NCBI GenBank assembly: GCA_035530055.1
Contig: DATKVN010000093.1
Span: forward strand, 1-58,814
DNA from: a bacterium
Lineage (GTDB): Bacteria > UBA6262 > WVXT01
Direction: 5' to 3'
Length of the DNA: 58,814 bases
A program made the position numbers and the translations under genes. Below, piece by piece: positions 2,688-43,622 of this stretch. The stretch's first letter is position 1. Every line of letters begins with the position of its first letter. The notes below the pieces were generated by a model. The model did no database searches, was not told the origin of the DNA, and worked only from the letters and a program-made list of their open reading frames with translations.

Positions 2688-2942
2688 TTAGATGAAAATT
2701 TTTGGTTTTTTGAGTCCTACGGTAATTAGTGTTTCTGTTGCAGTAGTACCTGGAATAGCCCTTATCTTATTAATCACAAGTGAGGCAAGTTCATCTGTAT
2801 CTCCTACTTGCACGCTAACTACGAGGTCCCACCGGCCAAAAACAGCAATAACTTTCTGGACTCCTCTAATTTGCCTTAATGCTTCCATAACAGCTTCTTC
2901 ATGTCCTGATAATAGACGGACAAAAACCAACCCAGAGACCAT
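2688..2942 (-). CDS. Stand-alone Lrp/AsnC-type ligand-binding (RAM) domain protein
   Basis: 84 residues corresponding to the C-terminal ligand-binding domain of Lrp/AsnC regulators, with no helix-turn-helix. The pattern VFVRLLSGHEEAVMEALRQI, then a central AVFGRWDLVVSV and a closing TETLITVGLKK, is typical of these small stand-alone domains. Family members form rings that bind amino acids and may act as effector-binding partners of other regulators; the ligand here is unknown. The gene is separated from its neighbours by repeat DNA on both sides, so context gives no further clue. Confidence 0.82.
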   Translation of the reverse strand: MVSGLVFVRLLSGHEEAVMEALRQIRGVQKVIAVFGRWDLVVSVQVGDTDELASLVINKIRAIPGTTATETLITVGLKKPKIFI

Positions 2943-2961
2943 TGTTTCCTCCTTCTATCAA

Positions 2962-2984
2962 CCCTCCCTTTCGGGAGGACTCCA
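2962..2984. repeat. GGAGTCC-type hairpin repeat
   Basis: CCTCCC-TTTC-GGGAGG hairpin followed by ACTCCA; on the minus strand it reads GGAGTCC then a stem with a GAAA loop. Copies at 8076, 8227 and 34966 share the same core. The following bases (AGCCGATT) also resemble the linker after the copies near 8 kb. Confidence 0.8.
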
Positions 2985-3001
2985 GAGCCGATTTCATCAA
3001 A

Positions 3002-3027
3002 GATGCAGAGCTTTGCTCTGCAGCTAC
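3002..3027. repeat. GTAG hairpin repeat, GCAGAGC family
   Basis: Stem GCAGAGC / GCTCTGC with a three-base loop, followed by AGCTAC, so the minus strand begins with GTAG. The TAG of this GTAG is the stop codon of the adjacent aldolase gene (3024-3026). Confidence 0.82.
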
Positions 3028-3578
3028 TTCCGAGAAAAAAGGTCTGCAAAATACTTCACTTTGCAAGCATGTTCGATAGAACATATCGTTACGAATGCTT
3101 CCTCGACAATCTTTCCAATAGCAATGGGTCCGTGTTCTTTTATTATCGCGCCTTTGTGGTCTTTAAGTACATTCGCTGCGTTTTGGGCAAGCTCTTTCGA
3201 CCCCACTCCTCCTGTTATGATAGGAATCTCGTGTAGGAAGTATTTGCTTTCACAGTCGGAAGGGATTAACAGGTTTGTGGAGGAAATCATCGATTGCACT
3301 ATGGCAAATGGAGAATGGGCATGGATTATGGCTAAAGCAGAAGTCTCTTTGTAGATTTGTCTGTGTACTATTGTTTCTGAGGAAGCTATGGTGTCGAAAC
3401 TACTGGGCTTATCCAGGTTTAACTCTACTACCATATTCTCATCGATCTCGTCGAGCATACTACCGCTTCTGGTAATTATGAGTTTGTTTCCTACTCTCAC
3501 GCTGATATTGCCGAAATGGGAATGGGCCAATCCACACTGAACCATCTTTTTGCCAAATTTGCTAATTTCTCTCCACAT
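3024..3578 (-). CDS. Class II aldolase / adducin-family protein
   Basis: About 184 residues, the length of small L-fuculose-phosphate-aldolase-like enzymes, which cleave or epimerise phosphorylated sugars using a bound divalent metal. Visible motifs, in order: HSHFGNISVR near the N terminus, RSGSMLDEI, the SSETIVHRQIY segment with the probable catalytic acid, the metal-binding HAHS, and a late KEHGPIAIG contributing the third histidine. An in-frame start exists at 3617, but the ATG at 3578 has a strong AAGGAG six bases upstream, so I use it. The substrate cannot be deduced, and neighbours are unrelated. The stop codon lies in a hairpin repeat, so the C terminus may have been trimmed or altered by it. 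Confidence 0.85.
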   Translation of the reverse strand: MWREISKFGKKMVQCGLAHSHFGNISVRVGNKLIITRSGSMLDEIDENMVVELNLDKPSSFDTIASSETIVHRQIYKETSALAIIHAHSPFAIVQSMISSTNLLIPSDCESKYFLHEIPIITGGVGSKELAQNAANVLKDHKGAIIKEHGPIAIGKIVEEAFVTICSIEHACKVKYFADLFSRK

Positions 3579-3634: not shown

Positions 3635-3663
3635 AAATATTTTCAACCTAACCAATGTCTACC

Positions 3664-8075: not shown

Positions 8076-8137
8076 CCCTCCCTTTCGGGAGGACTCCAAA
8101 GTCGATTGTTGGGCAAAAAAGTACCTGTCACTTTTTC
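8076..8137. repeat. Composite repeat: GGAGTCC hairpin + TACCTGTCAC unit (copy 1)
   Basis: CCTCCC-TTTC-GGGAGG, then ACTCCAAAGTCGATTG, then GGGCAAAAAAGTACCTGTCA and a T run. The first 48 or so bases match 8227-8275 with a single difference. Confidence 0.8.
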
Positions 8138-8226: not shown

Positions 8227-8293
8227 CCCTCCCTTTCGGGAGGACTCCAAAGTCGATTGCTGGGCAAAAAAGTAGCCTGTCCCCTTTTTTGTC
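8227..8293. repeat. Composite repeat: GGAGTCC hairpin + TAGCCTGTCCCC unit (copy 2)
   Basis: Direct repeat of 8076-8137 on the other side of the rpoD terminator. The hairpin, the linker AAGTCGATTGCTGGGC and the A-run/T-run-flanked GTAGCCTGTCCCC are all present. Confidence 0.8.
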
Positions 8294-34844: not shown

Positions 34845-34990
34845 CATTACGGGGATAAACCCCTGGGCGACCATAAAGGTCGCCCCTACGCGACCAAACC
34901 ATTATCCGTAGTGTAGCCCTTTATGGGCGTAGTTTTTACGGGGACAAAGCCCTGCAGTACGTTAACCCTCCCTTTCGGGAGGACTCCAAA
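34845..34990. repeat. Cluster of five or six hairpin repeats between two GT4 genes
   Basis: From left: ATTACGGGGATAAACCCC, GGGCGACC-ATAAA-GGTCGCCC plus CTACGCGACC (34868-34898), GTAGCCC-TTTAT-GGGCGTAG (34914-34932), ACGGGGACAAAGCCC, and CCTCCC-TTTC-GGGAGG-ACTCC (34966-34988). The assembly is the near mirror of 25759-25860. The stop codon of the next GT4 gene overlaps the right edge. Confidence 0.78.
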
Positions 34991-41113: not shown

Positions 41114-41168
41114 TGGAGTCCTTGCGAAAGCAAGGTTGATTACATCCCTCCCTTTTGGGAGGACTCCA
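41114..41168. repeat. Intact 55-base GGAGTCC element with inverted ends
   Basis: TGGAGTCC begins and GGACTCCA ends the element. The left half folds as TTGC-GAAA-GCAA, the right half as CCTCCC-TTTT-GGGAGG; ten bases (TTGATTACAT) lie between. This is the clearest complete copy of the family, and serves as reference for the partial ones. It lies 7 bases beyond the LpxL-type gene's stop. Confidence 0.85.
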
Positions 41169-42281: not shown

Positions 42282-43622
42282 TTATACGTAGGTGAGCAGG
42301 TTTTTTGCTAATATGGCACTCTTTTCGGCAGCTCCCTTATGCGCCTTAACTATTTCCAGAGCAGTCCTTCCCATTCTTTCTAATTCTTCGGGATTTGATA
42401 ATAACTTAAGGATACTGTTAACTAGCTCTTCTCTATTAGATACTACTCTTCCTGCTCCCCGGGAAATAAAAGATTGAGCTATTTCTTCAAAATTGTCCAT
42501 ATAGGGACCGAAGAGGACCCCCTTTCCTAAACTGGCCGGCTCGAGAATATTGTGCCCTCCCACAGGAACCAGGCTTCCACCTACAAAGACAATTTTTGCC
42601 AGAGCATAGAAATGAGTGAGCTCGCCAATGGTGTCCAGGAGAATAATCTGATTTAGATTGTTGCCATGAAATGGAGAAGAAAGTTCTGACCTTCTGGTGA
42701 ATTTAAAATTTCTGCTATTCAGCAACTTTTCCACTTCGTTTACTCTCTGCATATGGCGGGGCGCAAGAATTAAAACTATCTGAGGATAAGACTTTTTAAT
42801 TTCTCCATAAACATCAAGGATTGTCTCTTCTTCTCCCCTATGCGTGCTACCGGCAACAAAAATTACCTTGCTTTCGCCAGGACTCCAGAATTGTTTGGAG
42901 TCCTCCCGAAAGGAAGGAAGGTAGTTATCTTTTGAATCAAGAAGAATGTCAGTGCCTACATCAAACTTCAAATTTCCTGTTACAGTGACTGTTGAGGAAT
43001 TAGCTCCCAATGAGATAATCCGCTCTGCATCCATTTGACTCTGCATAATAAATAGGTCGATATTTTCCAGGACTCTGTTCATCAAGAACTTAACCATTTT
43101 ATACTTTCTAAAAGAGCCCGTAGAAATCCTTCCGTTAGCTACCATTATGGGAACTGTTCTTTTCTTTGCTTCCCTTATGAAATTCGGCCAGAGCTCTGTT
43201 TCGGTTATAATCAACAATTTTGGTTTGATGGTATCGAGAACTCTTCTCACTATGCAGGAGAAATCAAGAGGAAAGTAAATGAATGCCCGGGCATCGGGAA
43301 TTACCTTTCTAGCCATAGTTTGACCAGTAGTGGTTAATGTGGAAATAACAAAATCGTAATCAGGGCATTCCTTTTTAATGGCTCTTATTAAATTCCCCAT
43401 GGCTACTACTTCGCCCACGGAAGCGGCATGGGCCCAAATGAGGTTTTCATTTCTTGCTCTGTTTATGCTTTTATTCAAAAAACCTAATCTCTGTTTCAGC
43501 CCTTTTCTTATTTTCTGAATAAAAAATGGCCAGAAGATAGAGAAGAAGAAAACTAAAAGAATCTGGTAAAAAGTCCAGAAGAAATCGAACTTTTTAATCT
43601 TGCCTTTCACGGGTTTTTCCAT
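42282..43622 (-). CDS. waaA: Kdo transferase WaaA (KdtA) with a repeat-derived insertion
   Basis: 446 residues. One N-terminal membrane helix, then the family landmarks: IWAHAASVGEVVAMGNLI, ETELWPNFIREA, ANGRISTGSFRKY, TVTGNLKFDV, VFVAGSTHRGEEE (quoted as AGSTHRGEEE), ILAPRHMQRV, GGSLVPVGGHNILEPASLG. WaaA adds Kdo from CMP-Kdo to lipid IVA and belongs to GT30. Between LKFDV and AGSTHRGEEE it has about nine residues more than E. coli WaaA, and this stretch (LPSFREDSKQFWSPGES) is encoded by two opposed GGAGTCC repeats at 42866-42917 without breaking the frame. It is followed one base upstream by the DUF3108 gene. Confidence 0.95.
   Translation of the reverse strand: MEKPVKGKIKKFDFFWTFYQILLVFFFSIFWPFFIQKIRKGLKQRLGFLNKSINRARNENLIWAHAASVGEVVAMGNLIRAIKKECPDYDFVISTLTTTGQTMARKVIPDARAFIYFPLDFSCIVRRVLDTIKPKLLIITETELWPNFIREAKKRTVPIMVANGRISTGSFRKYKMVKFLMNRVLENIDLFIMQSQMDAERIISLGANSSTVTVTGNLKFDVGTDILLDSKDNYLPSFREDSKQFWSPGESKVIFVAGSTHRGEEETILDVYGEIKKSYPQIVLILAPRHMQRVNEVEKLLNSRNFKFTRRSELSSPFHGNNLNQIILLDTIGELTHFYALAKIVFVGGSLVPVGGHNILEPASLGKGVLFGPYMDNFEEIAQSFISRGAGRVVSNREELVNSILKLLSNPEELERMGRTALEIVKAHKGAAEKSAILAKNLLTYV
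42866..42917. repeat. Opposed GGAGTCC repeat pair inside waaA
   Basis: Plus strand: CCTTGC-TTTC-GCCAGG-ACTCCA (42866-42887), an 8-base spacer GAATTGTT, then TGGAGTCC-TCCC-GAAA-GGAAGG (42896-42917). The first arm matches the left half of 41114-41168 with one change; the second matches the copies at 2962 and 8076. Both are read as protein. Confidence 0.88.

Follow-up and report, generated by a model that had tools for sequence, protein, structure and literature searches.

Probable in-frame insertion of a RAYT-associated REP doublet into waaA of an uncultured bacterium

The stretch of DNA analysed here (58,814 nucleotides, hereafter the window) carries, at positions 42866-42917, a 52-base head-to-head pair of short palindromes that lies within the reading frame of waaA, normally an essential gene in LPS bacteria. 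Our preferred reading, to which we assign a probability of roughly 0.88, is that a head-to-head doublet of a RAYT-associated REP family, resembling a BIME or REPIN, entered waaA after the split from the nearest sequenced congener. With three congener sites that lack the insert, the states before and after the event can be compared unusually clearly, and in an important gene.

The doublet, its host gene and its absence from congeners

A preliminary description of this DNA had placed the doublet inside a Kdo transferase frame, and its coordinates proved exact, the whole gene being one uninterrupted ORF of 446 amino acids. In this ORF the doublet is read on the minus strand as 17 codons, P236-K252 (PSFREDSKQFWSPGESK), plus the first base of V253. 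The gene and the parts of the insert are as follows.

42282..43622, minus strand: waaA (kdtA), Kdo transferase, 446 aa, the host gene; a single ORF supported by PF04413 and PF00534, Foldseek and dN/dS
42866..42917, no strand assigned: inserted head-to-head REP doublet, coding on the minus strand; absent in G001, G002 and G003
42866..42887, minus strand: REP unit type B, consensus TGGAGTCCTTGCGAAAGCAAGG, with one substitution in the waaA copy
42888..42895, no strand assigned: 8-nt spacer between the two heads; other head-to-head doublets have similar spacers
42896..42917, plus strand: REP unit type A, consensus TGGAGTCCTCCCGAAAGGGAGG, with one substitution in the waaA copy
42918..42938, no strand assigned: flank diverging strongly from relatives, which either came with the insertion or reflects rapid linker change

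The first unit reads CCTTGCTTTCGCCAGGACTCCA, the spacer GAATTGTT and the second unit TGGAGTCCTCCCGAAAGGAAGG. These had been taken for two opposed GGAGTCC hairpins; the opposed pair and its 8-base spacer stand, but a more fitting description is of two REP units, A and B, each with its own GAAA-loop hairpin and with their GGAG heads facing one another. The closest other copy in the genome (G000:C98:5937-5978, on contig 98) is likewise head-to-head and shares 53/58 bases with the waaA copy.

The identity of the host gene is supported by a match of the 446-aa ORF to PF04413 (Glycos_transf_N, 1.6e-63), by the additional presence of PF00534 and by a sequence match to solved WaaA, while the best structural match of its model in Foldseek is WaaA 2xci (2.4e-23); PRK05749 models also match, with scores below their NCBIfam equivalog cut-offs. 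The insert sits in the linker joining the two WaaA domains, following the GNLKFD block and preceding the VAGST block. This linker is a flexible hinge of naturally variable length, measuring 31 aa here, 18 aa in congeners and 14-28 aa (median 23) in 26 more distant WaaA proteins, and that of the insert-bearing protein is the longest among the 30 sequences compared. The AlphaFold model has a mean pLDDT of 88, and its sole segment below 50 comprises residues 230-249, although the insert's low value may be due in part to its not being covered by any other alignment row. With the linker left out, dN/dS against G001 is about 0.20, and the gene's own branch has 9 synonymous against 5 nonsynonymous changes; waaA is still under purifying selection and, with its insert, looks functional. 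The nearest named genomes (L123, L124) are MAGs labelled Clostridia, yet they encode WaaA, and this label looks doubtful given the LPS-type gene set.

WaaA is 94% identical in G001, 90-91% in G003 and 82-83% in G002, and all three of these same-genus proteins lack the segment while both flanks align, as the preliminary description had anticipated for close relatives. Relative to these congeners, waaA has a net gain of 39 nt, or 13 residues, and the frame is kept. The inserted residues were not found in any of the 26 more distant WaaA proteins, and a search for relatives that lack the repeat but share the residues, which would have spoken against an insertion, came out negative. Measured against G001, the nearest relative, dS is 0.078, and the insertion is therefore young. 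Its boundary is blurred, since about 20 nt next to the insert, on its 5' coding side, likewise depart from the relatives' sequence; in this divergent flank, ATAACTACC is similar to the tail linker of a different REP cluster (L022), and more DNA than the doublet may therefore have been inserted.

The repeat family and its RAYT gene

The window contains 16 copies of GGAGTCC where 5.1 are expected, and none of 100 shuffles reached this count. With at most one mismatch, CTTTCGNNAGGACTCC has 212 matches in the genome under study (G000), 71 in G003, 23 in G001 and 8 in G002, while the reversed-pattern control has 0; for the full head-to-head pattern the genome has 8 places and the control again 0. 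All other genomes searched gave 0 to 3 weak matches, near background, and among the genomes searched the family is therefore confined to the genus. The intergenic copies to which the preliminary description had pointed (41114, 2962, 8076, 8227 and 34966) are all real, and were delimited as follows.

41115..41167, no strand assigned: tail-to-tail doublet of the GGAGTCC family, outside waaA
2968..2983, minus strand: single type A unit
8082..8097, minus strand: single type A unit
8233..8248, minus strand: single type A unit
34972..34987, minus strand: single type A unit

A census of the listed hits, with the stretches around the repeat matches taken from the genome, collected about 213 units with a 22-nt consensus, TGGAGTCCTNNCGAAAGNNAGG. 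In each unit a GGAG head precedes a short stem that carries a GAAA loop, and the stems are of two types, A (TGGAGTCCTCCCGAAAGGGAGG, n=123) and B (TGGAGTCCTTGCGAAAGCAAGG, n=76). Close pairs among the 213 hits comprise 25 head-to-head pairs, mostly with 8-10 nt between their 16-base cores, and 59 tail-to-tail pairs. Head-to-head doublets are stop-free in all six frames in 21/25 cases, compared with 17/3000 random 52-mers from the window, which can explain why one is tolerated in waaA and implies that tolerance depends mainly on length and site.

Further palindromic families are present in the window, namely GGGCGACCAC..GTCGCCC (positions 3660, 27649, 38998 and 42249), GCAGACT..AGTCTGC (21175, 22117 and 32998) and GGGCATAAAGCCC (27622, 29767 and 34841), which suggests that the genome holds several REP families.

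On contig 43 of the same genome, a RAYT gene of the Y1 transposase group (G000:C43:15883-16404, 174 aa) matches NF047646, REP-associated tyrosine transposase, at 2.4e-31 and 108.6 bits (cut-off 80), and has arrays of A/B units on either side. Judged from sequence, the GGAG repeat and this gene together have the anatomy of a RAYT-associated REP system (REPtron): a short palindrome, one end of which is a conserved head, is present in many copies, the RAYT gene stands between arrays of the same A/B units, the units often form inverted pairs, and they are predominantly extragenic, with about 3 of roughly 100 clusters lying within a supported gene when ORFs of at least 110 aa are considered. Most published REPs are sorted by a GTAG or a CGTC tag (PMC3733652). 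We looked for GTAG in the consensus, where the head before the stem is instead GGAGT, and for CGTC, the tag of the superfamily that includes RPE-4 and RPE-6, in the A and B consensus; both are absent, and the family is accordingly filed as RAYT-associated but outside both published tag superfamilies. As the head is GGAG rather than GTAG, it is the physical association that leads us to infer that this RAYT recognises the GGAG-headed units. A similar RAYT was not found in G001 or G002, despite their few units; both genomes are incomplete.

The genome has a second RAYT gene (G000:C35:14125-14631; L067, L220), at 51% identity to the first; on its flanks lies another REP family, one whose head contains GTAG (GGAGTAGCGAAACTTGTTTCGC; GCACCGCAAGCGGTGCTACTCC). 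Doublets of this second family are nested in the spacers of head-to-head GGAGTCC doublets at L075:6948, L081:393, L084:1232, L098:1539 and L099:1677, as if one REP family used the other as a landing site.

Other in-gene copies and alternative explanations

In an in-gene screen, ORFs of 110 aa or more covered 36 hits, most of which look like 5' leaders or unsupported ORFs. Hits at N-termini (pyrH, trpA, lptF and others) were set aside as likely REPs in 5' leaders, with the start codon downstream of the repeat; REPs without stops leave the frame open in such leaders. ORFs that matched no Pfam family (L011, window 2692-3354) were left out of the in-gene count. In topA (L001:692-2695), an exact copy of the 16-base REP-like pattern was dismissed as a chance match, since the second hairpin arm is missing and the residues fit what we take to be a motif conserved in the TopA family; it serves as a caution for censuses that rely on pattern only.

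Further in-frame cases in other genes, which had been expected, do exist. One in-frame head-to-head doublet is in a TPR protein (L115:1576-5196, minus strand), where it is oppositely oriented and uses a different frame (LAIARSPELPGVLPKGRG); the 86% identical ortholog in G003 lacks it. The last codons of the TPR protein come from a further REP unit, and the G003 ortholog ends about nine codons earlier. A Wzy_C protein contains a single type A unit common to three species (G000, G001 and G003), and since an ortholog without the unit was looked for and not found, it is the sequence match that argues for an insertion there. The proposal that the family adds surface loops to proteins was not supported: the waaA residues lie in an interdomain linker, and the few clusters inside supported genes speak for a tolerated rarity rather than an established habit. 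We consider it unlikely that the GGAG RAYT/REP family is a recurrent source of in-frame linkers, as in waaA, the TPR protein and Wzy_C, with some copies kept because they are helpful.

Could the segment be ancestral, or resemble the repeat by chance? Chance matches do occur, as topA illustrates, but the waaA copy has both full units with their hairpins and the usual spacer, it agrees with another genomic copy at 53 of 58 bases, and its residues are missing from three congeners and 26 distant homologs; the sites in G001, G002 and G003 refute this explanation, which we regard as the least probable of all. A misjoined REP read, arising in assembly or binning, is a concern in a draft of 106 contigs with repeated REPs, but the waaA copy has substitutions of its own, waaA is continuous on both flanks and the net +39 nt keeps the frame, all of which makes an artefact very improbable. 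Hardly more plausible than a chance likeness is a palindromic element of the Rickettsia type, CGTC-tagged and without a dedicated transposase; it would account for the like behaviour of in-frame palindromes in functional genes, but neither consensus has the CGTC tag, and arrays of these very A/B units surround a RAYT gene.

An adaptive insertion, altering the hinge behaviour of WaaA or tuning expression through an mRNA hairpin, is unlikely, if less so than the explanations above. The linker is now the longest of the 30 compared, and the transcribed strand of the insert is predicted to form a strong hairpin (-28.1 kcal/mol, z -3.9), but such folding is expected of any head-to-head palindrome, the insert occurs in one species only, model confidence in the linker is low and selection on the insert is unreadable from one sequence. 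Returning to the insertion of a RAYT-associated doublet, we propose that the contig 43 RAYT moved it via single-stranded DNA, and that it survived because it has no stop codon, its net length change is a multiple of three and its site is an interdomain linker. The earlier suggestion that a mobile repeat is translated in frame in waaA and is compatible with function is supported by the insert-free congener sites, the further in-frame copies in the TPR and Wzy_C proteins, the kept frame and the purifying selection. Most likely the insert acts as neutral, translated filler, and a gained function finds no support here.

Relation to known intragenic repeats

REP singles and dimers within ORFs have been reported in several species, where intragenic dimers or groups encode 20-30 residues, and insertion into flexible linkers or loops was proposed to be potentially neutral (Di Nocera et al. 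2013, PMC3733652). In view of these reports the phenomenon of intragenic REPs is already known, and what is new here is a REP family in an uncultured lineage. As with the intragenic GTAG/CGTC REPs (PMC3733652), head-to-head dimers are common and units mostly intergenic, and GTAG units are RAYT-associated; in contrast to them, the head is GGAG (GGAGTCC), the host is an uncultured lineage, the target is waaA and the insert-free site is shown in three close relatives. The many inverted pairs and a RAYT gene flanked by its own units are shared with REPINs and their RAYT (Bertels and Rainey 2011, PMC3116915; TnpA_REP biochemistry, PMC8266576), but published REPs are predominantly extragenic and have a GTAG rather than a GGAG head, and the RAYT link is made here by gene association.

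The comparison with Rickettsia palindromic elements, drawn in the preliminary description, is apt for behaviour, as these too are palindromes read in frame within genes whose products are likely functional, but not for kind. Sequence and host differ; RPE-4 and RPE-6 carry the CGTC tag and their class is apparently without a dedicated transposase (PMC3733652), whereas the GGAG family has no CGTC tag and is associated with a RAYT gene as its own transposase gene.

Our findings offer a polarised, recent case (dS about 0.08, three insert-free congeners) of a transposase-linked REP doublet kept in frame in waaA. That the family is largely stop-free in every frame and that the target is a length-variable hinge suggest why it was tolerated, and the published idea that linkers tolerate intragenic REPs becomes directly testable.
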